This document shows positions 660-22,007 of a stretch of 36,375 nucleotides of DNA, piece by piece. This DNA is from Pseudomonadota bacterium. GTDB taxonomy: Bacteria > Pseudomonadota > Gammaproteobacteria > Xanthomonadales > Xanthomonadaceae. Position 1 is the first letter of the stretch. Each line of letters starts with the position of its first letter. Where the stretch lies: the NCBI GenBank assembly GCA_018242465.1, contig JAFEBY010000011.1:1-36375 (forward strand). Reading direction: 5' to 3'. Position numbers and translations under genes: made by a program. The notes beneath the pieces were generated by a model. The model did no database searches. It saw only the letters and a program-made list of their open reading frames with translations, and had not been told where the DNA came from.

Positions 660-665
660 GACAAT
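660..665 (+). promoter_or_regulatory. -10-like box GACAAT, predicted leaderless start
   Basis: GACAAT ends exactly 6 nt before the ATG at 672, which puts the predicted transcription start on the A of the start codon. It has 4/6 matches to TATAAT, including the key second A and final T. No convincing -35 is seen and there is no Shine-Dalgarno before the gene. Confidence 0.5.
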
Positions 666-671
666 ATCCCG

Positions 672-1457
672 ATGAAATCCCTGTCCGCGCTGCTGGTAAT
701 GCTGGTCGTCCTGTCCTGGACGACGGATGCCGGTGCGCGCACGGTCTATCGTTGCGTGCGTGGTAATACCGTCAGCCTGGCGACGGCGCCGGAGCCGGGA
801 TCGAAGTGCGTCGCCAAGGAAGTCGATGACAATGTCGCCAAGGTGCCCAATCTATGGGGTGATCTCGGTGCGATCAACGGCACGCTTTACGAGCGCCAGC
901 AGGATGGCAAGACCGTCTACAGCACGCGCAACTTGCCGGGATCGACGCCGGTCCTGAAGTTTTTCGTGCAGACGCCGCCGGGATCCCCGGCGCACGAAGG
1001 TCTGGGCAAGGTCAGCAAGCCGCGACTCGACATGTATGCCAGGGAATTCAAGTCGGCGGCGAAGAAAACCAAAGTTGATGATGCCTTCCTGCGCGCGATC
1101 GCCCATGCCGAAAGCGGGTTCGACGAACGCGCGACTTCGCCGAAGGGCGCGCTGGGCGTGATGCAGTTGATGCCCGACACCGCGCATGAACTCGGGGTCG
1201 CCGATCCCTATGCGCACGAGCAGTCGATCAGCGGTGGTGCGCGCCTGTTGCAGCGATTGCTGGCGCGCTACAAGGGCGATTACGGCAAGGCAGCTGCGGC
1301 CTACAACGCCGGTGTTGGTGCAGTCGCCAAGTACGGCGGGATTCCGCCGTATCGCGAAACGGTCGATTACGTGCAGAAGGTGACTGCGTTGCACGCGGCC
1401 TACCGTTCGGCGATGAAGTTGCCGCCGTTGCAACCACTGCTGCGCGCTGCGCAGTAG
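672..1457 (+). CDS. exported lytic transglycosylase (SLT domain)
   Basis: Protein of 261 aa. It begins with a signal peptide (about residues 1-22, ending near TDAGA). Residues 23-47 and 71-92 each look like a DUF4124-type segment (TVYRCVRGNTVS and TLYERQQDGKTVYS). The SLT/goose-lysozyme-type catalytic domain spans about 125-245, with HAESGF carrying the likely catalytic Glu147, followed by GALGVMQLMPDTA and AAAYNAGVGAV, all hallmarks of MltC/Slt-like enzymes. The enzyme should cleave peptidoglycan MurNAc-GlcNAc bonds to 1,6-anhydro ends in the periplasm. It stands alone after the rRNA terminators. The start at 672 gives the signal peptide and lies 6 nt after a -10-like GACAAT. The family call is secure; the in vivo role is unknown. 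Confidence 0.92.
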   Translation: MKSLSALLVMLVVLSWTTDAGARTVYRCVRGNTVSLATAPEPGSKCVAKEVDDNVAKVPNLWGDLGAINGTLYERQQDGKTVYSTRNLPGSTPVLKFFVQTPPGSPAHEGLGKVSKPRLDMYAREFKSAAKKTKVDDAFLRAIAHAESGFDERATSPKGALGVMQLMPDTAHELGVADPYAHEQSISGGARLLQRLLARYKGDYGKAAAAYNAGVGAVAKYGGIPPYRETVDYVQKVTALHAAYRSAMKLPPLQPLLRAAQ

Positions 1458-1604
1458 GAATTGGAGGTTCGTTGCCAGACGTTAAAGTTCTGCTGGCAGC
1501 AACAGCGGGGATAGCAGGGCGAAGCGCATCTGCATGGCAGCTCCCGACGCAGAGGCATGAGTATCACCGATCCGTGGTGCCGTCGCGTGGGCAAGCGCGT
1601 GGGC

Positions 1605-1610
1605 GATAAT
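1605..1610 (+). promoter_or_regulatory. -10-like box GATAAT, predicted leaderless start
   Basis: GATAAT (5/6 to TATAAT) ends 6 nt before the ATG at 1617, so transcription should start on the start codon itself. No -35 or Shine-Dalgarno is visible. The preceding 1458-1604 is non-coding and holds only a weak interrupted hairpin (about 1471-1504). Confidence 0.55.
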
Positions 1611-1616
1611 GCCGAC

Positions 1617-2333
1617 ATGTCGACTGCCATCCGCATGGTCGGTTTCGATGCCGACGACACCCTCTGGAAGAGCGAGGATTACTACCGCGCCGCCGAGGCG
1701 GAATTCCGCCGGATCGTTGGTGGTTACATCGATCTGTCCGACCTGGGCGGACGCCTCTATGAGGTGGAGAAGCGCAATCTCGCGGTGTTCGGCTATGGTG
1801 CCAAGGGCATGGTGCTGTCGATGGTCGAAGCGGCGATCGAGATCACCGAAGGACGGATCGATGCCGCCGACATCCATCGCATCGTGTCGCTGGGGCGCGA
1901 CTTGCTGCTGCATCCGGTCGAAGTATTGCCGGGCATTCCCGCCGCGGTCGATGCCGTTGCCGAGCGCTGGCAGGTTGTCCTGATCACCAAGGGCGACCTG
2001 TTCCACCAGGAAGCGAAAGTGCAGGCGTCGGGGCTGGCCGGGCGCTTCGAGCGCATCGAAGTCGTCAGCGAAAAGGATGCAGCGACCTATGCCCGACTGT
2101 TGCGCGAGTTCGGCATCCAGCCGACGGAATTCGTGATGGTAGGGAATTCGCTGCGTTCCGACATCGCACCCGTGCTCGAGCTTGGTGGCGCCGGCGTCCA
2201 CGTGCCATATCACGTGACCTGGGTGCACGAAGCCGAACATGATGTCGATGCGGCGCATCCGCGCCTGCGCCAGGTCGACGATGCCGCGGGGATCGTCGCG
2301 GCGGTCGCCGACCTCGCGTTCGGAAACGGCTGA
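1617..2333 (+). CDS. HAD-superfamily hydrolase (phosphatase-like)
   Basis: Protein of 238 aa, probably cytosolic. All four HAD motifs are visible. Motif I is VGFDADDTLW near residues 8-17, with the nucleophile Asp in DxDxT. Motif II is VVLITKGD. The conserved lysine of motif III is in SEKDAATYARLL. Motif IV is FVMVGNSLRSDI, holding the Mg-binding acid. The helical insert between motifs I and II is typical of the C1 cap group. A Mg-dependent phosphatase acting on a small phosphorylated metabolite is likely, but the substrate cannot be read from sequence. An in-frame ATG exists at 1557, but I choose 1617: the upstream 20 residues are unlike the family, and a GATAAT box ends 6 nt before 1617. 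Confidence 0.9.
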   Translation: MSTAIRMVGFDADDTLWKSEDYYRAAEAEFRRIVGGYIDLSDLGGRLYEVEKRNLAVFGYGAKGMVLSMVEAAIEITEGRIDAADIHRIVSLGRDLLLHPVEVLPGIPAAVDAVAERWQVVLITKGDLFHQEAKVQASGLAGRFERIEVVSEKDAATYARLLREFGIQPTEFVMVGNSLRSDIAPVLELGGAGVHVPYHVTWVHEAEHDVDAAHPRLRQVDDAAGIVAAVADLAFGNG

Positions 2334-2351
2334 CAGATCGAAGGTCTGTCA
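2331..2351 (+). terminator. hairpin overlapping the HAD stop codon
   Basis: TGACAGATC (2331-2339) pairs with GGTCTGTCA (2343-2351) through nine pairs, one of them G-U, around a 3-nt loop. The first arm starts on the TGA stop codon. There is no T-run, so it may be an mRNA 3'-end or attenuating structure rather than a full intrinsic terminator. Confidence 0.45.
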
Positions 2352-2393
2352 TCCCTGAAGCTGACTCTCCAATGCGATTGCGGGGGAGCGGGC

Positions 2394-2819
2394 ATGAACA
2401 AAATCGGGACAATGGTCGTGGTGCTGGCGTTGGCCTGCGGCCATGCTTGGGCAGGGGAGGTCCACCAATGCCTGGGTCAGGCTGGCGCGGTGAGTTATGT
2501 CGATGGGGACTGCCCGGCAGGCACCCGTGCCGGATGGATACGCAGCTATGACGATGATCGCGTGGGGCAGGCGCGTTCGATCCGTCAACGCCAGCTGGAA
2601 ACGCTGGAGTGGCAACGCAGCAATCGCGCCGAGATCTCGGCGATGATGCGGGTGCGTCGCGGTGGTAGTCGGGTGGCATCGACCGGGCGCGGCGACGGCA
2701 TGGATCGCTGCCAGCGATCCCGCCATCGTCGTGATCGCATTCGTGACCGCGAGTTCCAGACGATGACCTATGACCGCATGGTTGCCCTCGACGACGGGGT
2801 CCGCGAGGCCTGTCGCTAG
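2394..2819 (+). CDS. small exported protein, DUF4124-like
   Basis: Protein of 141 aa. It has a signal peptide (residues 1-20, cleavage near GHAWA-GE). The mature N-terminus (EVHQCLGQAGAVSYVDGDCP) resembles the DUF4124 pattern of small periplasmic proteins, with two cysteines that could form a disulfide. The C-terminal half is very rich in Arg and probably helical (RSNRAEISAMMRVRR..., RQRQLETLEWQR). A GGGGGAG Shine-Dalgarno-like stretch lies upstream of the ATG at 2394. Function is unknown; such proteins are frequent in xanthomonads. It stands alone between the HAD gene and another exported protein. Confidence 0.75.
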   Translation: MNKIGTMVVVLALACGHAWAGEVHQCLGQAGAVSYVDGDCPAGTRAGWIRSYDDDRVGQARSIRQRQLETLEWQRSNRAEISAMMRVRRGGSRVASTGRGDGMDRCQRSRHRRDRIRDREFQTMTYDRMVALDDGVREACR

Positions 2820-2912
2820 CCTGACCAGGCCAGCGCGGCTTCGCTGCCGTTCAACTGGGGGGTGTTATGGTGCCGCGTGCTCGCCACAGGGGTGGGCCCC
2901 AATCAAGTAGCC

Positions 2913-3359
2913 ATGACGCAATTCCGACGTGCCCTGCTGATCGCCTGCCTCGCCTGCGGCATCTCCGCATGGGCGCCGCAAGTTCGGGCCGAGGATGCAT
3001 TGGACTGCCATTTGCGTTTCAATCTTGAAGGCTGGTCGGCGTTCTACAAGACCGCGTCGGGCACCGGCATGGTGACCTGCAACAACGGCGACCGCCTGCC
3101 AGTGACCATCATCTCCCGCGGCGGCGGCCTGACCTTCGGCAAGTCGCGCATCACCGACGGCGACGGGGAATTCACCGGTATCGCCAACATCCGCGACGTG
3201 CTGGGTTCTTACGCGGCGGCCGAGGCGCACATTGGCGCGGTACGCTCGCGCCAGGTGCAGGTGGTGACCAAGGGCAACGTTTCGCTTGCGCTCAAGGGCA
3301 AGGGCGATGGCTGGGATATTGGCGTCTCGCTGGCGAGTTTCATCCTCAAGCCGCGCTGA
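2913..3359 (+). CDS. exported protein of unknown function
   Basis: Protein of 148 aa. It has a signal peptide (MTQFRRALLIACLACGISAWAPQ, cleavage near QVRA-ED). The mature part of ~120 aa contains a pair of cysteines (DCHLRF, MVTCNN) and a Gly-rich beta-type core (SRGGGLTFG, GWDIGVSLASF) that loosely recalls small beta-barrel or lipid-binding periplasmic domains. I do not recognise the family with certainty. The in-frame ATG at 2862 would add 17 non-signal residues; 2913 gives a clean signal peptide and is preferred. A TTATGGT-like -10 near 2865 would give a leader that is compatible only with the downstream start. Confidence 0.7.
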   Translation: MTQFRRALLIACLACGISAWAPQVRAEDALDCHLRFNLEGWSAFYKTASGTGMVTCNNGDRLPVTIISRGGGLTFGKSRITDGDGEFTGIANIRDVLGSYAAAEAHIGAVRSRQVQVVTKGNVSLALKGKGDGWDIGVSLASFILKPR

Positions 3360-3374
3360 TCCGAACTCGCATGG

Positions 3375-3380
3375 CACACT
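3375..3380 (+). promoter_or_regulatory. -10-like box CACACT, predicted leaderless start
   Basis: CACACT ends 6 nt before the ATG at 3387. It is a weak match to TATAAT (3/6) but keeps the critical second A and final T, and it resembles TACACT at 11454, which has the same 6-nt spacing. It is supported mainly by this shared geometry. Confidence 0.4.
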
Positions 3381-3386
3381 GCTGCC

Positions 3387-4064
3387 ATGAAGACCGAACT
3401 TGAATGCGTCGAGACCGTTGTCGGGCAAGGGGATCCGGGGTGGTCGGTGGTGTGGCTGCACGGCCTCGGGGCCGACGGCCACGATTTCGCGCCGATCGTT
3501 CCCGAATTGCGCCGTGAGGGTTGGCCGACGGTCCGCTTCGTGTTCCCGCACGCGCCGGTCCGCCCGGTCACCATCAATGGCGGCATGCGCATGCGGGCGT
3601 GGTACGACATTGCCCATCTTGATCTCGCCAATCGTGCCGATGAGGCCGGGTTGCAGGAATCGATGGCGCAGGCGGAAGTGCTGATCGCCCGCGAAGTCGC
3701 GCGCGGCGTGCCGGAATCGCGGGTGGTGCTCGCCGGGTTTTCGCAGGGCGGTGCGGTGACGCTGGCACTGGCCATGCGTCGCGCGCTTCCGCTTGCCGGG
3801 TTTGTCGCGTTGTCGACCTATCTGCCGGCGCCCGAACGGGCCAAGGCCGAATGCCGCGCCGATGCCGCGAAGCCGCCGGTGTTCATGGCGCATGGCCTGG
3901 GCGATCCGGTGGTGCCCTACCTCGCCGGCGAAATGAGCGCCGACGTGTTGCGCGAATGCGGGTTCGGCGTGGAATGGCACGCCTATCCGATGATGCATGC
4001 GGTGATGCCTCAGGAAATCTCCGATTTGTCCGACTGGTTCGAGGCACGGTTCCGCGCGGGCTGA
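3387..4064 (+). CDS. alpha/beta-hydrolase, carboxylesterase / acyl-protein thioesterase family
   Basis: Protein of 225 aa with no signal peptide. It shows the classic layout of the phospholipase/carboxylesterase family: oxyanion-hole region VVWLHGLGADGHDF (residues 21-34), nucleophile elbow AGFSQGGA with Ser119, acid in GLGDPVVP (Asp173) and base in YPMMHAV (His204). Length and spacing match Pseudomonas carboxylesterase II and eukaryotic acyl-protein thioesterase 1. It hydrolyses carboxylic esters or thioesters in the cytosol; the natural substrate is unknown. It sits directly upstream of algR, in the place where pseudomonads carry the sensor kinase algZ, but it is unrelated to kinases. Confidence 0.93.
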   Translation: MKTELECVETVVGQGDPGWSVVWLHGLGADGHDFAPIVPELRREGWPTVRFVFPHAPVRPVTINGGMRMRAWYDIAHLDLANRADEAGLQESMAQAEVLIAREVARGVPESRVVLAGFSQGGAVTLALAMRRALPLAGFVALSTYLPAPERAKAECRADAAKPPVFMAHGLGDPVVPYLAGEMSADVLRECGFGVEWHAYPMMHAVMPQEISDLSDWFEARFRAG

Positions 4065-4107
4065 ACGCGCGCTACCATCGGCCCACGAAGATCGCGGGGA
4101 CGCGTGG

Positions 4108-4854
4108 GTGCAGGACACTCGGGGCCAACAGGTATTGCGCGTGCTGGTCGTCGATGACGAGCCGCTGGCGCGCGAACGCCTGCACTCGATTCTCCAGCAG
4201 ACGCCCGGTGTGGTCGTGTCCGGTGCTGCCGGCAATGGCGAGGACGCGATCGCATCGATGCAGCAGTCACCGGCGGATCTGGTCTTGCTCGACATCGCGA
4301 TGCCGGGTGGCGATGGACTGGACGTCGCGCGTGAATTGGCGGAATTGCGGCCGCGACCGGGCATCGTCTTCGTCACCGCGCACGCCGAACACGCCGCCGC
4401 CGCGTTCGACGTCGAAGCGATCGACTATCTGGTGAAGCCGGTGCGGCGCGAACGGCTGGAAATCGCCCTGCAACGCGCGCGCCTGTACTTGGCGACGCGG
4501 GGCAGTATCGCCAGCGATGGCAGTCGCGGGCACCTGCTGGTGCGCCAGCGCGGTGGCGTTCGTCGCATCGCCATCGACGAGGTCGCCTACCTGCAGGCCG
4601 ACGACAAATACGTGATGGTCCATCATGCGAATGGCCACGATCTGATCGAGGATTCGCTGAAATCACTGGAAGAAGCCTTCCCCGAGCGATTCCTGCGCAT
4701 CCATCGCAACTGCCTGGTGGCGCGCAAGGCGCTCGAGGGGTTGCGCCGCGACGGCGAGGGCCAGTACCACGTGCTGTTGCGGGGTGTCGCAGAGCCACTG
4801 GAAATCAGTCGGCGCTGCCTGCCCGCGGTGCGGTCGGCCATCGAACAGGATTGA
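4108..4854 (+). CDS. algR: LytTR response regulator AlgR
   Basis: Protein of 248 aa. The receiver domain spans about residues 10-125: acidic pocket VVDDEPL, phospho-acceptor Asp62 in [10 protein letters not shown], and the conserved Thr and Lys in FVTAHAE and IDYLVKPV. A LytTR DNA-binding domain follows (about 145-246: [24 protein letters not shown]). The pairing with hemC just downstream is the well-known algR-hemC order of Pseudomonas and relatives, where AlgR controls surface and virulence functions; targets here are unknown. The start is taken as GTG 4108, which gives a complete receiver domain. An in-frame GTG at 4141 is possible but would trim the first strand. A TACCAT -10-like box at 4073-4078 would give a ~23-nt leader. 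No partner kinase is in the window. Confidence 0.9.
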
Positions 4855-4865
4855 GCCGCACGCGC

Positions 4866-4871
4866 GATAAT
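4866..4871 (+). promoter_or_regulatory. -10-like box GATAAT, predicted leaderless start
   Basis: GATAAT (5/6 to TATAAT) ends 6 nt before the hemC ATG at 4878. This is the same box and spacing as at 1605 and 21222. No clear -35 is seen 16-18 nt upstream, inside the end of algR. Confidence 0.55.
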
Positions 4872-4877
4872 GGCGGG

Positions 4878-5792
4878 ATGAATCGCCTGCGCATCGCCAC
4901 CCGCAAGAGCCCACTCGCCCTATGGCAGAGCGAGCACGTCGCCACCCGCTTGCGCGAGGCGCATCCGTGGCTGGAAATTGAATTGGTACCGATGTCGACC
5001 CGAGGCGACGAGATCCTCGATCGTTCGCTGGCGGCAATCGGCGGCAAGGGATTGTTCCTGAAGGAGCTGGAGTTGGCGATGCAGCGCGGCGAAGCCGATT
5101 GCGCGGTGCATTCGCTCAAGGACGTGCCGATGGTGCTCGATCCCGGCTTTGCGCTGCCTGCGATCCTTGAGCGTGGGGATTACGCCGATGCCTTCGTCAG
5201 CAATCGTTACGCCAATATCGCCGACTTGCCGATGCATGCCCGCGTCGGCAGCGCGTCCTTGCGGCGGCAGGCGCAGTTGCGTGCGTTGCGTCCTGACGCG
5301 GTGATCACCGATCTGCGCGGCAACGTCAACACGCGCCTGGCCAAGCTCGATGCCGGCGAATATGACGCCATCCTGCTCGCCTGCGCCGGCCTGCAGCGAC
5401 TCGGTTTCGACGATCGCATCCGTGACCGCATGGATGCACCGGAATGGTTGCCGGCGCCTGCGCAGGGGGCGATCGCGATCGAATGCCGCGACGATGCGCC
5501 GGAGATCGCCGCGCTGCTGGCCGTGCTGGATCACGCGCCGACCCGCATCTGCGTGGAAGCGGAGCGGGCGTTGAATCGCCGCCTTGACGGCAGTTGCCAC
5601 GTGCCGATCGCCGCATTTGCACGCCTTGATGGCGATCGCTTGCATCTGCAGGCGCTGGTCGCTTCGGTGCAGGACGGTCGCAGCCTGCACAGGCACGGGG
5701 AAGGCGATCCCTCGCGACCTGACGCACTGGGCGAGCGGCTGGCGGATGAATTGCTGGCCGCCGGCGCGCGGGAGTTGATCGCGGCAAGTTAA
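4878..5792 (+). CDS. hemC: hydroxymethylbilane synthase (porphobilinogen deaminase)
   Basis: Protein of 304 aa, close to the usual ~310. The enzyme joins four porphobilinogen molecules into hydroxymethylbilane in heme/siroheme synthesis, in the cytosol. Visible hallmarks: N-terminal [20 protein letters not shown] with the catalytic Asp82, [21 protein letters not shown], and [11 protein letters not shown] with Cys240, which carries the dipyrromethane cofactor (E. coli Asp84 and Cys242). An in-frame ATG-type start at 4851 overlaps algR. I choose 4878 because the protein then begins exactly at the family N-terminus and a GATAAT box ends 6 nt before it. hemD does not follow; the next gene is a WYL regulator. 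Confidence 0.97.
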
Positions 5793-5823
5793 GCTATGGG
5801 TTGCGCAGCTCCACCTCTCCCCC

Positions 5824-6789
5824 ATGGACCGCCACGAACGCATCCACGCTCTCCATCGCATCTTCAAATCGTCTCGCTATGCGGTGACGGTGCCGAGCCT
5901 GCAGGAACAACTCGGCTGTTCGCGCGCCACGGTCTATCGCGACATCGCCTATTTGCGCGATGCACTGATGGCGCCGATCGTCGGCGATGGCGATGCCGGT
6001 TTCCGCTACGACAGTCATGATGATTCGCGCTTCGAACTGCCCGGCCTGTGGCTGAGTTCGGAAGAGCTGCACGCATTGATGGCGGCGCAGGCGCTGATGG
6101 GCCACACCGGCGGCAACGTGCTGAACAGCGCGTTGGCGCCGCTGCAATCGCGCATCGAGAAGTTGCTGGAGGAGCAGGCTGGCGGGCGCCGCTGGCCGAT
6201 GGAGCGCATTCGCGTGCTGGCGCACAAGGCGCGTCGGCTCGACGAGCATTCGTTCCGCACCGTGGCTTCGGCGACGCTGGAGCGCAAGGAGCTCAGTTTC
6301 GATTACCGCGCGCGCTCCACCGACGAAACCACGCGTCGTCGCGTTTCGCCGCAGCGTCTGACGCACTACCGCGGCAACTGGTATCTCGATGCCTTCGACC
6401 ATGATCGCGAAGCATTGCGCAGCTTCTCGGTCGACCGCATCAGTGGTGCCAGGATGCTGGATGCGGCCGCGCGCGACGTCCCCGACGCCGAACTCGATCG
6501 CCATCTCGCCGGTGGCTACGGCATCTTCTCCGGCGACCCCAAGGGCGTGGCGACGATCCGCTTCAACGCCAAGTCCGCGCGCTGGGTTGCCGACGAGCAC
6601 TGGCACTCGCGCCAGGAAGGCCGCTTCCTGCCCGACGGTTCCTACGAACTGAAGGTGCCGTACAGCAACGGTCGCGAACTGCTGATGGACATCCTGCAGT
6701 ACGGCGGCGATGCCGAGATTCTCGAGCCGCGCAGCCTGCGCGAACAGGCACGCACGTTGTTGACGCTGGCGGCATCGAATTACGACTGA
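5824..6789 (+). CDS. YafY-type transcriptional regulator (HTH + WYL)
   Basis: Protein of 321 aa. It has an N-terminal winged HTH (residues 5-60; VPSLQEQLGCSRATVYRDIAYLRD), then a linker. The WYL domain spans about 145-225 and includes HYRGNWYLDAFDHD, with Trp186-Tyr187-Leu188, followed by LRSFSVDRIS. A WCX-type C-terminal extension occupies about 240-320. WYL proteins are DNA-binding regulators, some of which bind nucleic-acid ligands and control phage defence or DNA-damage genes; no such system is next to it here. A TAAGCT -10-like box (5790-5795) overlaps the hemC stop and would give a ~22-nt pyrimidine-rich leader without a Shine-Dalgarno. Confidence 0.9.
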   Translation: MDRHERIHALHRIFKSSRYAVTVPSLQEQLGCSRATVYRDIAYLRDALMAPIVGDGDAGFRYDSHDDSRFELPGLWLSSEELHALMAAQALMGHTGGNVLNSALAPLQSRIEKLLEEQAGGRRWPMERIRVLAHKARRLDEHSFRTVASATLERKELSFDYRARSTDETTRRRVSPQRLTHYRGNWYLDAFDHDREALRSFSVDRISGARMLDAAARDVPDAELDRHLAGGYGIFSGDPKGVATIRFNAKSARWVADEHWHSRQEGRFLPDGSYELKVPYSNGRELLMDILQYGGDAEILEPRSLREQARTLLTLAASNYD

Positions 6790-6808
6790 TCGCAGTCCGT
6801 GAGATGAC

Positions 6809-6850
6809 GGCGGGAGAGAGTGCTTCCATCCCCAAAGATGGAGTCCCGCC
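6809..6850 (+). other. hairpin abutting the start codon of the 6851 gene
   Basis: Two nested stems: outer GGCGGG (6809-6814) with CCCGCC (6845-6850), inner CCATC (6826-6830) with GATGG (6837-6841), loop CCCAAA. An asymmetric internal loop lies between the stems. The outer stem ends on the base before the ATG at 6851. It could affect initiation of the small gene or end the upstream mRNA; there is no T-run. Confidence 0.4.
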
Positions 6851-7099
6851 ATGCAGACCCGATCCTTCATCCATCCCGAAATCGTGCTGGTATTGCGTCG
6901 CGCCCTGTTGGGCGGGCTGGCGCTGGTCGCGCTGTGGCCTGCCGCGCGCGGATCGAATGCATGGCTAGGCTGGATGCCGCTGTGGCTGGTGCTGATGCCG
7001 GCCTGTGCACTGTGGGTGGCCGAGGGCCTGCCGGTGCCGCGGCTGGCGGTGCATCGTGGCGGCGGTCGTCGTGTCCAGGCGCGGCGACTGCGGGCCTGA
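6851..7099 (+). CDS. small membrane protein of unknown function
   Basis: Protein of 82 aa. Two hydrophobic segments are visible: about residues 13-32 (VLVLRRALLGGLALVALWPA) and 38-60 (LGWMPLWLVLMPACALWVAE). A basic Arg-rich tail follows (RGGGRRVQARRLRA), presumably on the cytoplasmic side. Similar short two-helix proteins occur in xanthomonads, to my recollection, but I cannot assign a function. A longer ORF in another frame (from 6820) is less plausible because it has no such organisation. The coding call rests on the membrane pattern and its fit between neighbours. Confidence 0.6.
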   Translation: MQTRSFIHPEIVLVLRRALLGGLALVALWPAARGSNAWLGWMPLWLVLMPACALWVAEGLPVPRLAVHRGGGRRVQARRLRA

Positions 7100-7176
7100 C
7101 TTCTGGCGGGTGAGGGCGCTCCGCCTTGCGTGTTAGCGTGGGCGACCACATTTCCCGACACAAGGAATGCCGCCCC

Positions 7177-9306: not shown

Positions 9307-11429
9307 TGACGGAAGATCGCAACATGCCGCAGCCGCCGCGTGCGACGAGGAAGCCGCACGTCGTCAGCGCACCGTTCGGCGCCGAACGCACGGATGCGTA
9401 TTACTGGCTGCGCGACGACGCGCGCGAAAACCCCGAGATGCTGGCATATCTCGCCGCGGAGAACGCCTACGCCGATGCCATGCTGGCGCACCTCAAGCCG
9501 CTTGAGGACACCCTCTACGGCGAGATCGTCGCCCGCATCAAGCAGGACGACAGCTCGGTGCCGTATCGCGAACGCGGTTGGTGGTATTACTCGCGCTATG
9601 TCACCGGGCAGGACTATCCGGTGCATGCACGACGCAGGGATGGCGCGGGTATCGATGCAGCTTTGATCCAGCAGGCCAATCTCGCCGGTGATTTTTCCGG
9701 CGAGCAGGTGCTGCTCGACGTCAACGCGCTGGCGCAGGGCCACGACTACTACTCCGCGCATCCGGTGGCGATCAGCCGCGACAACCGCATGATGGCCTGG
9801 GCCGACGACACCAATGGCCGCCGCCAGTACACGCTGCGCTTCACCGATCTCGATAGCGGAGAAGTGTTGGCGGATGCGATCCCCGGAACCAGCGCCGACG
9901 CCGAATGGGCCGACGACGGCCGCACGCTGCTCTACATCGAGAACGATCCGGAAACGTTGCTGACCGTGCGCGTGAAGAAGCACGTGCTTGGCAGCGACGT
10001 CGCGCGGGATGCGGTGGTCTACGAGGAAGACGACGACAGCTACTACATGGGGCTGGGTCGCACTCGTGACGATCTCTTCATCACGATTGCCTTGCACAGC
10101 ACGGTGTCGAACGAGGAGCGCTACGCGGCGGCGGCCGATCCGTCCGATTTCAAGGTGCTGGCGCCGCGCGAACGCGACGTCGAATACGACGCCGATCATT
10201 TCGATGGGCGCTGGGTGATCCGCACCAATGCCCCGGACGCGGACGGCGTACCCGCGAAGAACTTCAAGATCGTCACCGCCGCCGATGGTGCGACTTCGCG
10301 CAAGGAATGGGTCGACTGGATTGCGCACGACCCTGGGGTTTTCATCGAAACCATCGAACTGTTCGACGGCTTCAGCGCCATCGATGAACGCTCTGGCGGA
10401 CTGGAGCGCATCCGCATCCTGCACGCCGATGGTCGCGAGGAATACGTCAGGGCCGACGAGTCCGCCTATTCGATGGGTCTCGAAGTCAACGCCGAACCGG
10501 ATACCGAGTGGTTGCGCTACAGCTATACCTCGCTGACCACGCCGATCATCACCTACGAGGTGAACATCCGCTCCGGCGAGCGTCGCCTGCTGAAACAGCA
10601 GCCGGTGCTCGGTGGCTACGACCAGTCGAACTACGTCACCGAACGCGTGTGGGTGCCGGCGCGCGATGGCGTGCAGGTGCCGGTGTCGCTGGTCTATCGC
10701 AGGGACTTCAGGCGCGACGGCACGGCGGCGATGCTGCAGTACGGTTACGGCAGCTACGGGCATTCGATGGATCCGTCGTTCACCACTTCGATCATCAGCC
10801 TGCTCGATCGCGGCATGGTCTACGCGCTGGCGCACATCCGCGGTGGCGAGGAGATGGGCCGCGACTGGTACGACAACGGCCGGATGTTCCACAAGAAGAA
10901 CAGCTTCACCGATTTCATCGACGTCACCCGCTGGCTGGTCGAGCACAAGTACGTGGCGAAGGATCGCGTCGCGGCGATGGGCGGCAGCGCCGGCGGCCTG
11001 CTGATGGGCGCGATCTCGAACATGGCGCCGCAGGACTACCGGGTGATCCTGTCGCAGGTCCCGTTCGTCGACGTGGTGACGACGATGCTCGATCCGACCA
11101 TTCCGCTGACCACCAACGAATACGACGAGTGGGGCAATCCGGAGCACCAGGACAGTTACGACTACATGCTGTCGTACTCGCCCTACGACAACCTGAAAGC
11201 CCAGGCGTACCCGGCGATGTTCGTCGGCACCGGGCTGTGGGATTCGCAGGTGCAGTACTGGGAGCCGGCCAAGTACGTGGCGCGCCTGCGCGATGTCAAC
11301 ACGTCGACGTGGCCGGTCGTATTCCGCACCAACATGGAGGCCGGGCACGGCGGCAAGTCGGGGCGTTTCCGCCGCTATCGCGAGACGGCCGAGATGTATG
11401 CGTTCATGCTGGAACAGATGGGGGCCTGA
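9306..11429 (+). CDS. ptrB: oligopeptidase B (S9A serine peptidase)
   Basis: Protein of 707 aa with no signal peptide, so probably cytosolic. The propeller domain runs to about residue 430 and the peptidase domain follows. The triad is Ser561 in MGGSAGGLLMG, Asp646 in GLWDSQVQYWEP and His681 in EAGHGGKSGR. The DSxVQYWEP and MEAGHGGKSGR stretches are typical of oligopeptidase B, which cleaves short peptides after Arg/Lys. N-terminal features such as YYWLRDDAREN also fit. The ATG at 9306 shares its A with the TGA of the preceding S9 gene, implying translational coupling. The open frame continues upstream to 9000, but that part overlaps the other peptidase and does not resemble the family. Confidence 0.94.
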   Translation: MTEDRNMPQPPRATRKPHVVSAPFGAERTDAYYWLRDDARENPEMLAYLAAENAYADAMLAHLKPLEDTLYGEIVARIKQDDSSVPYRERGWWYYSRYVTGQDYPVHARRRDGAGIDAALIQQANLAGDFSGEQVLLDVNALAQGHDYYSAHPVAISRDNRMMAWADDTNGRRQYTLRFTDLDSGEVLADAIPGTSADAEWADDGRTLLYIENDPETLLTVRVKKHVLGSDVARDAVVYEEDDDSYYMGLGRTRDDLFITIALHSTVSNEERYAAAADPSDFKVLAPRERDVEYDADHFDGRWVIRTNAPDADGVPAKNFKIVTAADGATSRKEWVDWIAHDPGVFIETIELFDGFSAIDERSGGLERIRILHADGREEYVRADESAYSMGLEVNAEPDTEWLRYSYTSLTTPIITYEVNIRSGERRLLKQQPVLGGYDQSNYVTERVWVPARDGVQVPVSLVYRRDFRRDGTAAMLQYGYGSYGHSMDPSFTTSIISLLDRGMVYALAHIRGGEEMGRDWYDNGRMFHKKNSFTDFIDVTRWLVEHKYVAKDRVAAMGGSAGGLLMGAISNMAPQDYRVILSQVPFVDVVTTMLDPTIPLTTNEYDEWGNPEHQDSYDYMLSYSPYDNLKAQAYPAMFVGTGLWDSQVQYWEPAKYVARLRDVNTSTWPVVFRTNMEAGHGGKSGRFRRYRETAEMYAFMLEQMGA

Positions 11430-11453: not shown

Positions 11454-11459
11454 TACACT
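11454..11459 (+). promoter_or_regulatory. -10-like box TACACT, predicted leaderless start
   Basis: TACACT ends 6 nt before the lptM ATG at 11466. It lies in the 36-nt gap after ptrB. It fits the TAnnnT form that recurs in this window. No Shine-Dalgarno precedes lptM. Confidence 0.55.
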
Positions 11460-11465
11460 GCGGCC

Positions 11466-11711
11466 ATGAACATCCGACTCCCCCTCGTGCTGACTGCCGC
11501 CTGCCTGCTCACGGCTTGCGGCAACAAGGGCCCGCTGGTGCTGCCGCAGAAGCCGGTGCCGGTCGAAACCACGACGGTGCCTGCGCCTGCGCCGCAGACG
11601 GACACTCAGCAGACGCCATCGACCGAAGGCCAGCAGTCGCAACCGAAGTCTGCCGAGACGCCCGCGCCCGCCCAGGAGCCCCCGGCCACGCCGGCTCCCA
11701 AGCCCCGATAG
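11466..11711 (+). CDS. lptM: LptM (YifL-type) lipoprotein, LPS translocon maturation
   Basis: Protein of 81 aa. It has a lipoprotein signal with lipobox LLTAC (Cys18), followed at once by GNKGPLVLP, the family signature (usually GQKGPLYLP). In E. coli LptM binds the LptD/E translocon and helps LptD form its correct disulfides in the outer membrane. The rest is an unusually long low-complexity tail rich in Pro, Ala, Gln and Thr. Position directly before dapF matches the E. coli yifL-dapF order. The upstream in-frame start at 11442 would add eight residues and is rejected in favour of ATG 11466, 6 nt after TACACT. Confidence 0.9.
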   Translation: MNIRLPLVLTAACLLTACGNKGPLVLPQKPVPVETTTVPAPAPQTDTQQTPSTEGQQSQPKSAETPAPAQEPPATPAPKPR

Positions 11712-14974: not shown

Positions 14975-14989
14975 GGCACACCCCAAAAG

Positions 14990-15003: not shown

Positions 15004-15007
15004 TTTT

Positions 15008-15036
15008 ATTGAATGTTATCGTTCGCCCCTTGTCAA
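15008..15036 (-). promoter_or_regulatory. promoter of the MBL-fold hydrolase
   Basis: On the minus strand a perfect -35 TTGACA (15036-15031) is followed after 17 nt by TTCAAT (15013-15008; 4/6 to TATAAT). The predicted start, near 15001, falls in operator 1, and the -35 touches operator 2. This is the best -35/-10 pair in the window. Confidence 0.65.
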
Positions 15037-15050
15037 GGAACATCCATTCC
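15037..15050. promoter_or_regulatory. operator-like site 2 for the TetR regulator
   Basis: GGAACATCCATTCC matches site 1 at 11 of 14 positions (consensus GGAAYATYYATTCC). The sites are 47 bp apart, start to start. It lies 15 bp before the tetR ATG, adjoining the -35 of the hydrolase promoter and the ribosome site of tetR, which fits autoregulation. Confidence 0.6.
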
Positions 15051-15065
15051 CTTTTTGGAGATTGC

Positions 15066-15653: not shown

Positions 15654-15721
15654 GTCTGTCATTCGTCATGCCTTGAGTCCGGTCACGGCGACCCCAGATC
15701 GGAAGCTCAAAGGAGACTCCG

Positions 15722-16273
15722 ATGGACCCCAGCCAGAATCCGACCGTTTTCCACGCCACCACCATCTGTTCGGTGCGGCGCAACGGCCGCGTGGTGATCG
15801 CCGGCGACGGCCAGGTCACGCTCGGCAATACGGTGATGAAATCGAACGCGCGCAAGGTGCGGCGCCTCGGCGCGGATGGTCGCGTGCTCGCCGGCTTCGC
15901 TGGTGCGGCAGCCGATGCGTTCACGTTGTTCGAACTGTTCGAATCGAAGCTCGAGAAGCATGGCCAGCTGCTGCGCGCCGCGGTCGAGTTCGCGAAAGAC
16001 TGGAGGACGGAGCGCCGCTTCGGCAAGCTCGAGGCGCTGCTCGCGGTTGCCGACGCCGAAACATCGCTGGTGATCAGCGGAACCGGCGACTTGATCGAGC
16101 CGGAAGACGGCCTGATCGCGATCGGCTCCGGTGGCATGTACGCATTGTCGGCAGCGCGCGCACTGATCGCGCATACCGAACTCGATGCCAAGACCATCGC
16201 GACCGAAGCGCTCAAGATCGCCGGCGACGTCTGCATCTATACCAACCAGAACATCGTGGTGGAGGAGCTGTGA
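15722..16273 (+). CDS. hslV: ATP-dependent protease peptidase subunit HslV
   Basis: Protein of 183 aa. It is the proteolytic subunit of the HslUV (ClpYQ) complex, with an N-terminal threonine nucleophile. The family core begins at [23 protein letters not shown]. Here the first Thr is residue 13, after the pre-sequence [12 protein letters not shown], whereas the E. coli protein starts Met-Thr. The pre-sequence must be removed for activity; similar extensions are known to me from xanthomonad HslV proteins. Later landmarks are [17 protein letters not shown] and [22 protein letters not shown] lies 5 nt upstream of the ATG. It overlaps hslU by one base (TGATG). Confidence 0.96.
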
Positions 16274-17640
16274 TGCTCAAGCCCGACACGTCTTCCGCCG
16301 CGATGACGCCGCGCGAAATCGTCGCCGAACTCGATCGCCACATCATCGGCCAGCACCAGGCCAAGCGCGCGGTCGCGATCGCGTTGCGCAACCGCTGGCG
16401 GCGCGCGCAGCTGTCCGACGAATTGCGCCACGAGGTGATGCCGAAGAACATCCTGATGATCGGTCCGACCGGCGTGGGCAAGACCGAGATCGCGCGGCGG
16501 CTGGCGACGCTCGCCAACGCGCCCTTCGTCAAGGTCGAGGCGACGCGCTTCACCGAAGTCGGTTACGTCGGCAAGGACGTCGAGCAGATCATCCGCGATC
16601 TCGCCGACACCGCGGTCAAGCTCTATCGCGAACAGGCCAAGCAACGTGTGCGCACCCAAGCCGAGGAGCGTGCGGAGGAGCGGATCCTCGACACTCTGTT
16701 GCCGCAGCGTGCGCCGACCAGCTTCGGCTTCAATGCCGTGGACGTGCGCGACGAACCCTCGGCGGTCGAATCCGAGACCCGGCGCAAGCTGCGCCAGCAA
16801 TTGCGTGCCGGCGAACTCGACGAACGCCAGATCGAAATCGAAACCGCGGTGAATGTCGGCGTCGACATCATGGCGCCTCCGGGCATGGAGGAGATGGGCC
16901 AGCAGCTGCGTTCGATGTTCTCGCAACTGTCCGGCGGCAAGACCCACAAGAAGACGGTGACGGTGAAGGCCGCGCGCACGCTGTTGCAAGACGAGGAAGC
17001 CGCGAAACTCGTCAACGAGGATGAAGTGCGCGAAGCGGCGATCGAAGCCTGCGAGCAGCATGGCATCGTCTTCATCGACGAGATCGACAAGGTCGCCAAG
17101 CGCAGCGAAGGCCATGGTGCCGATGTCAGTCGCGAAGGCGTGCAGCGCGACCTGTTGCCGCTGGTCGAAGGCTCCACTGTCAGCACCAAGTACGGCCCGG
17201 TGCGCACCGACCACATCCTCTTCATCGCCAGTGGCGCTTTCCATCTCGCCAAGCCCAGCGACCTGATTCCGGAGATGCAGGGGCGCTTTCCGATCCGCGT
17301 CGAACTTGGCGCGTTGAGCAAGAGCGACTTCGTGCGCATCCTCACCGAACCCAAGGCCGCGTTGACCAAGCAATATGTCGAACTGATGCGCACCGAGGGC
17401 ATGGACCTGAGCTTCAGCGACGAGGCCGTCGATCGCCTCGCCGAGATCGCTGCCGATGTCAACGAGCGCCAGGAAAACATCGGCGCGCGCCGACTCCATA
17501 CCGTGCTCGAACGCCTGCTGGAAACACTGAGCTTCGAAGCGCCGGATCGCGGCGGCACGCTGGTGATCGATCGCGCCTATGTCGACGGCCACATGGGCGA
17601 GCTGGTCAAGGATCCCGACTTGTCGCGCTACATCCTCTGA
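16273..17640 (+). CDS. hslU: HslU ATPase subunit of HslUV protease
   Basis: Protein of 455 aa. This AAA+ unfoldase caps HslV. Walker A is GPTGVGKT (residues 64-71), Walker B is IVFIDEIDK (Asp269-Glu270), and the C-terminal tail LSRYIL is the segment that docks into HslV. The intermediate (I) domain lies between the Walker motifs (about 110-240), and a GYVGKDVE pore-loop motif is present. The start codon shares its first base with the hslV stop. The frame is open far upstream (to 15583), but that part overlaps tetR and hslV in a wrong frame. Confidence 0.98.
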
Positions 17641-17716
17641 CCCGCATTCATTTTCCAGCCAGCTACTGCAGGCGCATGAGCGTAGGCTGACGCCCTTCGG
17701 GGCCAATACCACGCGC

Positions 17717-19558
17717 ATGCAGGACAACGACACTTCGCCGCACACGCGTGCGGCGCTACCGCTATCGCCGTCGCTCGACCCGACGATGTCCGACGCGCAC
17801 ATGCCGCGCCGGTTCCGTCCGCTGTCGCGGCGCGTGATGTGGATCAGCGCGCTCGCCCTCATGCTCGGTGCCAGCGTCGGCGTGGTGGCGCGGGTGCTTG
17901 CCGGCCTGATCGGACTGGTCACCAATCTCGCGTTTTACGGGAGCTGGAGTACGGAATTTTCCAGTCCTGCCGGCAATCATCTCGGTGCATGGGTCATTGT
18001 CGTTCCGGCGATCGGCGGGATCATCGTCGGCTTCATGGCGCGCTGGGGCTCGCGCGCGATTCGTGGCCACGGCATTCCCGAAGCGATGGAGCAGGTGCTG
18101 CTCAACGAAAGCCGCATCCCCGCGCGCATGACCTGGCTCAAGCCGGTGTCCTCGGCGATCGCGATCGGCACCGGCGGACCGTTCGGCGCGGAAGGCCCGA
18201 TCATCGCCACCGGTGGTGCGCTCGGCTCGCTGACCGGGCAATGGCTGCGCGTCACCGCCGACGAACGCAAGACCTTGCTCGCCGCGGGTGCGGCAGCGGG
18301 TATGGCTGCGGTGTTCTCGGCGCCGGTTTCCGCGGTGCTGTTGTCGATCGAACTTCTGCTATTCGAACGTCGCGCGCGCTCGCTGATCCCGGTCGCGTTC
18401 GGTGCAGTCGCCGGGACCAGCGTGCGCTACGCACTCGAAGGCAATGCGCCGATGTTCCCGATGCCCGACATCGCATCGCCGACATTCCCGGCGATGGTGG
18501 CCTATATCGTATTGGGATTGCTGGTGGGCGTTGCCAGCGTCGGCATCACCAAACTCACTTACGCGATCGAAGACGGCTTCGAGAAACTGCCGATCCACTG
18601 GATGTGGTGGCCGGCATTGGGCGGGATTGTCGTCGGTGCGGTCGGCTATGTCATGCCCATCACGCTGGGCGTCGGCTACGACAACATCGCCGCGGTATTG
18701 GCCGGGCAGCTCGGGTTGGCGGCGATGGTATCGCTCTGCCTGCTGAAACTGCTGTCGTGGTCGATCGCGCTGGGTAGCGGCACTTCGGGCGGAACACTGG
18801 CGCCGCTGTTCACCATCGGCGGCGCGATGGGCGGCGCGGCCGGACTGGCGTTGGCGCATGGCATGCCGTGGTTGCAGGTGGACCCGCGCGTCGCCGCACT
18901 GGTGTGCATGGCGGCGATCTTCACCGGAGCCTCCCGTGCCTTCCTCACCGCAGTGGTCTTCGCATTCGAGACAACGCAGCAGCCACATGGATTGTTGCCG
19001 TTGCTCGGTGCCTGCGCGGCGGCCTATCTCGTGTCCGGCCTGCTGATGCGCAACACCATCATGACCGAGAAGATCGCGCGTCGCGGCGTGCGCGTGCCGT
19101 CGGAATACGCATCCGATTATCTCGACCAGATCATGGCGGGTGATGCCTGCAGCCGCGATGTCGTCAGCCTGCAGGCAACACAGGTGCTCGGAGACGTGCG
19201 CAGTTGGTTGATGGAAGACCATCCCGCCGCACGCCACCAGGGGTTCCCGGTGCTGGATGCCGACAACCAATTGCTCGGCGTGGTGACGCGACGCGATCTC
19301 ACCAACCTGCGCAACGATGATGAGGTGATGGTCGGATCGTTGATCCGGCGTAACGTGCTGGCCGTGCGTGAGGACCACTCGCTGCGTGAAGCCGCTGATC
19401 ACATGGTCGAAGCCGATGTCGGTCGGGTGATCGTGCTGGGGAAGGATGCGCCGCATCGCATGGTCGGCATCCTGACGCGTGGCGATCTGTTGAGCGCGCA
19501 TGCGCAACGATTGCGGGAGGCGCGGGAGATCAGCCGGGTGAGGCCGCGGCGGGATTAG
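17717..19558 (+). CDS. CLC-family chloride channel/antiporter with CBS domains
   Basis: Protein of 613 aa from ATG 17717. Some ten or more membrane helices lie between residues ~42 and ~460. The CLC signatures are GHGIPE (117-122; GSGIP in the best-known members), GPFGAEGP with the gating glutamate Glu159, and GSGTSGGTLAPLFTIGG further on. Two CBS domains close the protein (about 475-535 and 540-605; FPVLDADNQLLGVVTRRDL and RMVGILTRGDL), probably adenine-nucleotide-sensing. It should move chloride or another anion across the inner membrane. Whether it is a channel or an H+-coupled exchanger cannot be said. Start choice is uncertain: ATG 17786 is an alternative. TAGGCT at 17683-17688 is a possible -10. 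Confidence 0.9.
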   Translation: MQDNDTSPHTRAALPLSPSLDPTMSDAHMPRRFRPLSRRVMWISALALMLGASVGVVARVLAGLIGLVTNLAFYGSWSTEFSSPAGNHLGAWVIVVPAIGGIIVGFMARWGSRAIRGHGIPEAMEQVLLNESRIPARMTWLKPVSSAIAIGTGGPFGAEGPIIATGGALGSLTGQWLRVTADERKTLLAAGAAAGMAAVFSAPVSAVLLSIELLLFERRARSLIPVAFGAVAGTSVRYALEGNAPMFPMPDIASPTFPAMVAYIVLGLLVGVASVGITKLTYAIEDGFEKLPIHWMWWPALGGIVVGAVGYVMPITLGVGYDNIAAVLAGQLGLAAMVSLCLLKLLSWSIALGSGTSGGTLAPLFTIGGAMGGAAGLALAHGMPWLQVDPRVAALVCMAAIFTGASRAFLTAVVFAFETTQQPHGLLPLLGACAAAYLVSGLLMRNTIMTEKIARRGVRVPSEYASDYLDQIMAGDACSRDVVSLQATQVLGDVRSWLMEDHPAARHQGFPVLDADNQLLGVVTRRDLTNLRNDDEVMVGSLIRRNVLAVREDHSLREAADHMVEADVGRVIVLGKDAPHRMVGILTRGDLLSAHAQRLREAREISRVRPRRD

Positions 19559-19593
19559 CCACGAGCTGCCATGGAAGACAGCAATCCCAATAA

Positions 19594-19618
19594 AAAAGCC
19601 GCCCATCGGGCGGCTTTT
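19594..19618. terminator. bidirectional terminator between the CLC and MFS genes
   Basis: AAAAGCCGCCC (19594-19604) pairs perfectly with GGGCGGCTTTT (19608-19618) around the loop ATC. The A-run on the left and T-run on the right make it work in both directions. It lies between two convergent genes ending at 19558 and 19644. Confidence 0.95.
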
Positions 19619-19643
19619 GTTTCCACTGCAATGAACCCGGCGA

Positions 19644-21095
19644 TCAATGCCCGCCAGCACCCGCCGCGACCTTTTCCAGATCGATGCCTTGGGCCTTGAT
19701 CTGCTTCGCGGCGAACCACGAATAGAAGGCGAGGTAGGCGAAGCAGCAGAAGCCGACCAGGTAGCTCAGCTGGATGCCGATGTGTTCGGACAACCAGCCC
19801 TGGAACATGCTGACCAGGCCGCCGCCCATGATCATCATGATCAGGAAGCTGGACCCGGTGCCGGTGTGGCGGCCCAGACCGGTGATGGCAAGGGTGAAGA
19901 TGCAAGGCCACATGACGCTGCAGGCCAGCCCACCGCAGACGAAGGCGAGGGCACTGAGCATGCCTGAGGTGAGCATGCCGACGGCCAGTGCGACGAGGCC
20001 GAGCACCGCGAAGTACAGCAGCATGCGCGCCGGGTTGCCATGGCTGGCCAGTGCGGTCACCGCCATGATGGCGATCGGGATCACGTAAAGATGGAATTGC
20101 GAGGTGTCGCGCTGGGCGATGGCATTGACCGCCAGGTAGACGCCGAAGGCGAGGAACGGGAACAGCAGGATCAGTGCCTTTTGCAACGTGCCCTTGGCGC
20201 CGAGCACGCCAGGAATGCCGGTCCAGCGCCCCATCATCAGGCTGGCCCAGAACAGCGAAATGAACGGCGCCACCTGCGAGGTCTGGACGTTGAGGTTGTG
20301 CTCGAGGTACGCGGGCAGGTTTCCGGCGGTGGAGACTTCGACGCCGACATACAGGAAGATCGCCAGCATGCCGAGTACCAGCTGCGGATAGGCAAACACC
20401 GAGTGACGATGGATCAGCTTGCTGGCGTCCTCGGCTTCTTCTTCGGCGACCTTGTCGAGATCGAGTTTGTTCGGCACCGAGGAGAACTTGAGGATTGCAG
20501 CGACGATCAGGAATGCCGCGCCGAGGAACAGGTACGGTGTCTTGACGTTCCCGATATTGGCCGTGGCATTGCTGGCGGTGGCGCTGCCGAAGATGGCGTA
20601 GCTGACCAGCAGCGGGCCGATGGTGGTGCCGAAGTTGTTGACGCCGCCGGCCATGTTGAGACGCTGCGCGCCGGTGCTGGGATCCCCCATCACGATCGCC
20701 AGCGGGTTGGCGGCGATCTGTTGCAGGGAAAAGCCCAAGGCCACCACGAACAGGCCGGAAAGCATCAACGGGAAGGACCCGAGGTTGGCGGCTGGAATAA
20801 AAAGCAGCGTGCCCAGTGCCGAGATCACCAGGCCGAGGCAGATGCCGTTCTTGTAGCCGATGCGGTTGAGCAGGTCGGCACCCGAGATCTTGGAATACAG
20901 GAAGTAGATCGCCGAACCGACGGCGTAGGCGATGTAGAAGGCGTTGGACACCCACTGGCTTTCCACCTGCGTGAGGTTGAACGCCTTCTTGAACACCGGG
21001 ATCAGGATGTCATTGCTGGCGGCGACGAAGCCCCAGAAGAAGAACACGGTGATGAGCACGCCGAACTGCGACCAGCGGGTTTGTTGCTTCGTCAT
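19644..21095 (-). CDS. FHS-family (FucP/GluP-like) sugar MFS transporter
   Basis: Protein of 483 aa with about twelve membrane helices and a cytosolic loop near residues 205-235 ([18 protein letters not shown]). The N-terminus ([20 protein letters not shown]) and [37 protein letters not shown] are typical of the fucose/glucose/galactose-H+ symporters. It should import a hexose or a related sugar with protons; the precise sugar is unknown. Transcribed toward the terminator at 19594. An extended -10 (TGC-TAGCCT, minus strand 21137-21129) gives a ~27-nt leader. The leader has no Shine-Dalgarno and ends in GCCTCCC before ATG. Confidence 0.93.
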
Positions 21096-21128
21096 GGGAG
21101 GCTGTCTTCGTGGGAGGCAAACGGGGCT

Positions 21129-21137
21129 AGGCTAGCA
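21129..21137 (-). promoter_or_regulatory. extended -10 of the sugar transporter gene
   Basis: Read on the minus strand, TGCTAGCCT is a TGn extended -10 followed by TAGCCT (TAnnnT), 33 nt before the start codon at 21095. The leader would be ~27 nt. Confidence 0.4.
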
Positions 21138-21221
21138 TCGAATCGATCCAACGCAGGGGTATCCGCGCATGTTGCGTCACAGCATCAACGGGCGGCCACG
21201 GCCTGTAGCGGCGGGCGATGC

Positions 21222-21227
21222 GATAAT
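21222..21227 (+). promoter_or_regulatory. -10-like box GATAAT, predicted leaderless start
   Basis: GATAAT ends 6 nt before the ubiE ATG at 21234, identical in box and spacing to hemC and the HAD gene. No clear -35 or Shine-Dalgarno is visible. Confidence 0.55.
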
Positions 21228-21233
21228 CCCGGC

Positions 21234-22007
21234 ATGAACGAATCGAACGACAAGGTTGGCGACACACCCGGCACCACCCATTTCGGCTATCGCGACGTCC
21301 CCGTGGACGAAAAGCAGAAGCTGGTGGGCGAGGTCTTCACGTCGGTGGCCGGCAAGTACGACCTGATGAACGACCTGATGTCGCTGGGCATCCATCGGGC
21401 CTGGAAGCGCTACTTCGTCGCCACCTCGTCGGTGTCGCGCGGTGATCGCGTGCTTGACCTGGCGGGCGGTACCGGCGACATCGCCGCACTGCTGCGCGAT
21501 CGCGTTGGTGATGCGGGCGAGATCGTGCTTGGCGACATCAACGGTTCCATGCTCAAGGTCGGCCGCGATCGCATGACCGACCGCGGCAACGTCAACGGCT
21601 TCGAGTACGTGCAGTGCAACGCCGAGGCGCTGCCGTTCCCGGATGCCAGCTTTGACCTCGTCACCATTGCCTTCGGCCTGCGCAACGTCACCGACAAGGA
21701 CGCTGCCCTGCGCGACATGCATCGCGTGCTGAAGGTCGGCGGGCAGGCGCGCGTGCTGGAGTTTTCCCAGGTCACCGCCGACTGGTTCAGGCCGATCTAC
21801 GACTTCCACAGCTTCAAGGTGCTGCCGCACCTCGGCAAGCTGTTCGCCGGCGACAGCGACAGCTATCAATACCTCGCCGAATCGATCCGCAAGCACCCGC
21901 CGCAGGACGAGCTCAAGGCGATGATGCAGGCGGCCGGCTTCGCGCGCTGCGACTACCGCAACCTGTCGGGCGGCATCGTCGCCATTCATACGGGCTACAA
22001 GGTCTAG
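21234..22007 (+). CDS. ubiE: ubiquinone/menaquinone C-methyltransferase UbiE
   Basis: Protein of 257 aa. It is an S-adenosylmethionine-dependent C-methyltransferase of ubiquinone synthesis. Visible landmarks: [18 protein letters not shown] (residues 41-58, UbiE signature 1), SAM motif [13 protein letters not shown] (73-84), [19 protein letters not shown] and [15 protein letters not shown] (signature 2). C-terminal [17 protein letters not shown] is typical. The open frame extends upstream to 20040, but that stretch is antisense to the MFS gene; ATG 21234 is the family start and follows a GATAAT box by 6 nt. ubiB and ubiJ do not follow it here. Confidence 0.97.

Follow-up and report, generated by a model that had tools for sequence, protein, structure and literature searches.

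The sequence studied here is a complete contig of 36,375 nucleotides (nt; JAFEBY010000011.1, hereafter the window) from a member of the Xanthomonadaceae (assembly GCA_018242465.1; 2.52 Mb in 139 contigs, 87% complete), in which six forward-strand genes are each preceded by a box resembling the -10 promoter element that ends exactly 6 nt ahead of the ATG. We conclude that hemC, ubiE, lptM and others of these genes are very probably expressed as leaderless mRNAs that are read from a 5'-terminal AUG. A sigma-70-type promoter would have a -10 element ending 6 nt ahead of the coding sequence, and because of this distance RNA polymerase is expected to begin at the A of the ATG. The resulting mRNA would have no leader, and the ribosome would initiate on its 5'-terminal AUG without Shine-Dalgarno (SD) pairing. 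The sequence data establish the box, the preference for a gap of 6 nt, the restriction of this arrangement to in-frame ATGs in start zones and its genome-wide excess, as well as the conservation of the box for hemC, ubiE, lptM and a HAD-family gene. From these we infer that the box serves as a promoter, with the A as +1 and translation from the terminal AUG.

The six boxes are given here together with their 6-nt spacers, and all six genes are predicted to be leaderless. GACAAT (660..671) precedes a lytic transglycosylase gene with an SLT domain (672..1457; PF01464, E 4e-24), and GATAAT (1605..1616) a HAD-family hydrolase gene (1617..2333; PF00702, E 2e-13) whose longer open reading frame spans 1557-2333. 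CACACT, a weak -10-like box (3375..3386), stands before a phospholipase/carboxylesterase-family gene (Abhydrolase_2; 3387..4064; PF02230, E 9e-47; hereafter, the esterase gene). The other three are GATAAT (4866..4877) before hemC, encoding hydroxymethylbilane synthase (4878..5792; TIGR00212, E 9e-104), TACACT (11454..11465) before lptM, encoding a lipopolysaccharide-assembly lipoprotein (11466..11711; NF047847, E 6e-10, and PF13627), and GATAAT with TGC before it, an extended -10 form (21222..21233), before the methyltransferase gene ubiE (21234..22007; NF001242, E 4e-119), the frame of which is open far upstream. Both hemC and ubiE are generally counted among essential genes.

These boxes had been pointed out by an earlier, sequence-only reading of the window, and direct inspection placed all of them where it had put them; the Pfam and NCBIfam matches likewise agreed with its gene identities. 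Five of the six passed our strict rule for a -10-like box (A at position 2, T at position 6 and at least four of six matches to TATAAT), whereas CACACT, with three matches, did not. TACACT is the only one of the six to fit TANNNT strictly, the others starting with G or C. Four genes had been said to have longer frames, and in-frame alternative starts were indeed present upstream of the HAD gene, hemC, lptM and ubiE; for the first three, our coding-score caller chose the longer start. The lack of an SD was also reproduced, with no match of at least 4 nt in the 20 nt before any of the six ATGs.

A genome-wide scan for the box against shuffled sequence had been set beforehand as the test, and it revealed a sharp peak at a gap of 6 nt, both in the genome itself and in 63 named loci from its family. 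A lack of enrichment at this spacing, named in advance as the refuting outcome, was thus not what the scan gave, and the earlier interpretation is supported. The own-genome set consisted of the window and 80 further stretches (945,490 bases, i.e., 945 kb of the 2.52 Mb; the overlapping stretch L022 was dropped) and yielded 810 genes, called with our own hexamer coding-score script and not with a published finder. Every ATG from 150 nt before to 60 nt after the start with the best coding score (the coding-best start) was taken as a candidate, several per gene being possible. Among about 1160 such start-zone ATGs, boxes stood at gap 6 before 50 and at gap 7 before 21, and the other gaps up to 22 had 2-12 boxes each. 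In 200 dinucleotide-preserving shuffles, the mean was 8.6 at gap 6 (standard deviation, sd, 2.6; maximum 16) and 8.9 at gap 7 (maximum 18). Reading frame also mattered, as gap-6 boxes preceded 50 of the 1160 in-frame start-zone ATGs, compared with 6 of 1538 out-of-frame ATGs in the same zones and 11 of 5260 in-frame ATGs in gene interiors.

The gap-6 excess in this genome was not found for GTG (3/714) or TTG (4/564) starts. Start codons with a gap-6 box thus comprised 50 ATG, 3 GTG and 4 TTG, and those with an SD of at least 5 nt divided 104:31:12. Initiation on a 5'-terminal start codon is known to prefer ATG in E. coli. The preference observed here fits such initiation, and a polymerase that favours A at +1 could contribute to it. 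Of the 749 genes with closed upstream ends, 70 carried a box at gap 6 or 7; by our estimate after background subtraction, roughly 7-8% of the genes in this genome would use the leaderless mode, a share for which the "standing mode of expression" proposed earlier is a fair description. The histogram had a second, broad hump at gaps 27-34 (10-19 boxes per gap). In other genes, boxes about 27-33 nt before the start would be placed as in a promoter that is followed by a short leader, and the occurrence of like boxes at two preferred distances agrees with a promoter rather than with a signal for the ribosome.

The sequence context of the 70 predicted leaderless starts was profiled further. G at -14 (0.61 of sites), A at -9 (0.64) and A at -8 (0.73) were frequent, A at -11 and T at -7 being demanded by the box rule itself, and T at -15, checked for an extended -10, occurred in 0.27. 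The boxes agree with the sigma-70 -10 hexamer, CACACT weakly so, and a TANNNT-type signal about 10-12 nt before the start, by which leaderless genes are recognized, was present beyond chance. Predicted 5' structure was weaker in these genes than in others (-7.55 kcal/mol, n = 70, vs -8.92 kcal/mol, n = 459; P 0.014) at equal GC content. Their upstream neighbour was divergent in 35 cases and on the same strand in 33, and 2 had none; for 708 other genes, the corresponding numbers were 175, 506 and 27. An SD of at least 4 nt was found in 6 of the 70; for 678 others, scored at the coding-best start, the share was 0.39, a difference that is partly forced by geometry.

To follow the boxes among relatives, we used a family set of 63 named hemC loci (1.10 Mb, 969 genes). 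In this set, the three loci nearest by hemC came from metagenome-assembled genomes (MAGs) with 95, 90 and 88% identity, the last of which carries the label Lysobacter, and the remaining 60 loci (68-83% identity) were mostly labelled Lysobacter, Luteimonas, Pseudoxanthomonas, Thermomonas or unnamed MAGs. One MAG (RX2_metabat.bin.76) has two hemC-matching contigs, L129 and L131, one with GATAAT at gap 6 and the other without a good box, so that a second copy or a mixed bin may be involved. Of the 1347 ATGs in the family set, 117 had a box at gap 6, 30 at gap 7, 3 at gap 5 and 4 at gap 8, a peak to which the hemC and esterase orthologs contribute and which is therefore not independent of them. 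Orthologs were scored at gaps 5-8 with the start no more than 45-60 nt from its expected position, and were later recounted by gene. A loose rule (at least three of six matches) was applied to hemC and to the first esterase count, and a strict one (at least four of six) to ubiE, lptM, the HAD gene, the transglycosylase gene, other genes and the hemC loci outside the family. Of 786 other genes in the 63 loci, 65 had an ATG at gap 6-7; this base rate was determined by a near-identical rule centred on the coding-best start and not on an alignment.

The geometry was kept in most orthologs of four genes. For hemC, an ATG at gap 6-7 was present in 58 of the 63 loci by the strict rule (59 by the loose one), with GATAAT as the box in 54. 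For ubiE, lptM, the HAD gene and the transglycosylase gene, 30 loci were kept per search, the window itself included, and further strong ubiE matches exist outside those scored. The ubiE ATG was at gap 6-7 in 29 of 30 loci (gap 6 in 23 and gap 7 in 6) and at gap 5 in the last; the box was GATAAT in 28, and TGC stood directly before it in 24. Three lptM loci (L194, L195 and L200) gave no match on re-search and were left unscored; among the remaining 27, 25 had gap 6-7 (gap 6 in 20, gap 7 in 5) and the other two gap 8, the box being TACACT or TATACT in 25. The HAD gene had the gap-6-7 geometry in 24 of 30 loci, and its box sequence was not kept, with 10 types of which CATACT was the commonest (8 loci). 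As judged by eye, for hemC, ubiE and lptM the box and its distance stay while the flanks and the 6-nt spacer vary.

Outside the family, 40 hemC loci from eleven other families of the order (designated by our f numbers) were compared. An ATG at gap 6-7 was found in all three loci of f166, both of f170 and one of six of f172 (AAAAAT, in a low-GC context), the last family also having one TTG match. The remaining 29 loci of other families had no ATG with a box at gap 6-7 and a single GTG match at gap 5. In f176, GACAAT was located 28-34 nt ahead of the ATG in four of seven loci (L206, L209, L210 and L211), three of them with GGAG in between; the other three had GACAAT at 45 nt, TAGGAT at 30 nt and no box, respectively. 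Judging from this arrangement, the f176 hemC genes with a distant box are the predicted leadered counterpart of the leaderless hemC in the family of the window.

Boxes at gap 6 were counted for each of these families relative to its ATGs: f166 7/69, f171 5/81, f168 3/46, f176 3/173 (with 6 at gap 7), f175 1/70, f174 1/18, f169 1/16, f170 1/20, f167 0/98, f173 0/106 (with 5 at gap 7) and f172 8/186. The background was 5.9 per gap in f172 and below 1 per gap in the others, from small samples. In an E. coli K-12 control (five stretches, L204 and L245-L248), 1 of 322 ATGs had a gap-6 box versus a background of 7.0 per gap. Such boxes seem rarer in E. coli than those at other gaps, perhaps since the SD sits there. 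A class-wide survey of the pattern in 185 genomes was unusable, as its control used the pattern in reverse instead of a different spacing, and the counts differed widely between genomes.

Several observations weigh against the leaderless reading, and they are considered here and in the following paragraphs with the alternatives they touch. The gap-7 signal is weaker than it appears and partly a codon-phase background, because out-of-frame (14/1538) and interior (49/5260) ATGs also carry gap-7 boxes; so do 9 of 564 TTG starts (GTG, 6/714). The share of C at -1 hardly differed from that at other ATGs in the own genome (0.54 vs 0.47) and did so more in the family set (0.67 vs 0.47). An alternative is that the boxes are promoters from which transcription starts a few nt off the A, giving leaders of 1-5 nt or removing the first base; the merely slight shift to C at -1 in the own genome speaks for it, as do the gap-7 sites (6 of 30 for ubiE, and 21 in the own genome beside 50 at gap 6). 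The peak nevertheless occupies a single register at gap 6, the gap-7 excess shrinks when compared with interior in-frame ATGs, and the gap-6 excess is restricted to ATG, fitting a terminal codon. We thus regard a start off the A as improbable.

Among single genes, five hemC loci misfit by the strict rule: the box of L131 (AAGCAT) passes the loose rule only, L085 has its gap-6 box before a GTG start, L099 has a GTG match 30 nt away, and L117 and L138 are without a box. The HAD gene of a same-genus locus (L250, genome G228) had no box at gap 5-8, possibly reflecting a recent loss of the predicted leaderless state. Two genes were not consistently conserved. The transglycosylase gene, alignable at its start in 27 loci (three were not), had gap 6-7 in 9 and gaps 5-8 in 12 of these; in all three syntenic relatives, a box ends 6 or 7 nt ahead of the ATG. 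The esterase gene had gap 6-7 before the ATG in 20 of 54 orthologs by the loose rule and 17 by the strict one; by geometry, 20 count as leaderless, another 8 combine a box 20-38 nt upstream with an SD-like motif, and the rest comprise 25 unclear cases and 1 that could not be aligned at the start. The transglycosylase counts and the poor match of CACACT (3/6) are what one would expect if the regularity were a chance pattern picked by eye from AT-rich hexamers. The shuffles, the frame controls and the conservation among orthologs make this scarcely credible for the set as a whole, and chance was rejected for hemC, ubiE, lptM and, by geometry, the HAD gene; for an individual gene like that of the transglycosylase, it is still conceivable.

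The missing SD motifs are weaker evidence than they appear, and partly forced by geometry, because an SD would sit where the box lies, at -12 to -7. A -35 element was not enriched in the own genome, with at least four matches to TTGACA in 0.19 of the 70 sites versus 0.13 in shuffled sequence (sd 0.039), and at spacers of 16-18 none of the 17 strong-box sites had one. The family set showed a weak excess (0.15 of 147 sites vs 0.07, sd 0.022), with 0.04 of 76 among its strong-box sites, and the leadered sets (13 and 20 sites) were also weak for -35. A -35 element is not obligatory when the -10 is extended. The place of the box near the usual SD position, together with the lack of -35 enrichment in the own genome, could indicate a translational element, e.g., an S1-binding site or SD substitute, in a longer leader. 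Similar boxes are, however, located 20-38 nt upstream in 8 of the 54 esterase orthologs and 4 of the 7 f176 hemC loci, mostly with an SD-like motif in between, and these distant boxes fall close to the second hump seen genome-wide. No gap-6 excess was found for GTG and TTG starts, for which SDs are used in this genome, and divergent upstream neighbours were over-represented. A translational role is therefore very unlikely, and it was rejected on account of the distant boxes and the absence of a GTG/TTG excess.

Also on the opposing side, no transcript ends were seen in the open-licence literature among the matches listed. The box promoters could furthermore be minor ones, with hemC, the esterase gene and lptM mostly transcribed from upstream promoters as inner operon genes, which is compatible with leaderless mRNAs from the boxes. 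The preceding genes end at 4854 (hemC), 3359 (esterase) and 11429 (lptM), leaving short intergenic gaps, and 20 of the 33 same-strand predicted leaderless genes are within 40 nt of the preceding gene. The box and spacing of hemC, ubiE and lptM are nonetheless kept while the surrounding sequence drifts, and a minor role of the box promoters seems rather unlikely to us.

A more tentative proposal is that the leaderless state of particular Xanthomonadaceae core genes is itself selected, so that heme, quinone and outer-membrane genes might share a translational control through leaderless initiation; we consider this possible and somewhat doubtful. In many genera, hemC, ubiE and lptM each retain a characteristic box together with the exact AUG-terminal geometry. 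The HAD gene retains the geometry with a changing box, and other genes, the esterase gene for one, appear to switch between a leaderless form and a short SD leader.

In Xanthomonas campestris pv. vesicatoria, from the same family, the differential RNA sequencing of Schmidtke et al. in 2012 (NAR) reportedly revealed a notable share of leaderless mRNAs. That this transcription start site map exists is confirmed by PMC3744752. According to Zheng et al. 2011 (PMC3160421), predicted leaderless genes of the gamma-proteobacteria are mostly in Xanthomonadales and Legionellales, and the switching of signals between orthologs was measured in Actinobacteria. As leaderless genes had already been predicted for Xanthomonadales, the genes reported here would be a confirmed and conserved instance and not a new mechanism. 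They resemble the TA-led genes of that study in having a TANNNT-type signal about 12 bp ahead of the start, and differ in that GATAAT or xACAAT is often the box where the gene is conserved, and in that conservation was tested gene by gene in one family.

In mycobacteria, nearly a quarter of transcripts are leaderless, and a 5' ATG or GTG suffices (Shell et al. 2015, PMC4633059). The predicted leaderless mRNAs here would similarly be a standing mode beside SD-led ones, whereas ATG is the one start codon with a gap-6 excess, and the share of genes covered is the small one estimated above. The leaderless promoters of Bradyrhizobium (PMC4842269) likewise have a -10-type motif directly ahead of the start, in the extended form TGnTA, while in the present genome G at -14 is enriched and T at -15 is not, with the exception of ubiE and its TGC. 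For comparison, the StartLink study cites predicted leaderless transcription for 21.6% of bacterial species, and a Cupriavidus map had a peak of 5' untranslated region length at 26 nt and 4.67% leaderless transcripts.

What is added to this known phenomenon is its conservation at the gene level within the Xanthomonadaceae, which was not found described among the open-licence matches listed and may be in print elsewhere. With ubiE, hemC and lptM predicted to be leaderless in nearly all family loci examined, a gene set is at hand for asking why core genes stay leaderless, and the esterase gene offers natural ortholog pairs predicted to be with and without a leader. The boxes also flag start codons that a coding-score caller sets too far upstream, as for three of the six genes here.

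Some further boxes were seen in the window. A predicted gene at 2394-2819, without a Pfam or NCBIfam match, has an ambiguous start: CAAAAT stands 7 nt ahead of the ATG at 2412, which lies inside the gene, and the coding-best ATG is preceded by GGAG, which is SD-like. GAGGAT at 35429 and GAAGAT at 9324, both at gap 6 before an ATG, pass a loose box rule but have more the look of SD-like or coding sequence.

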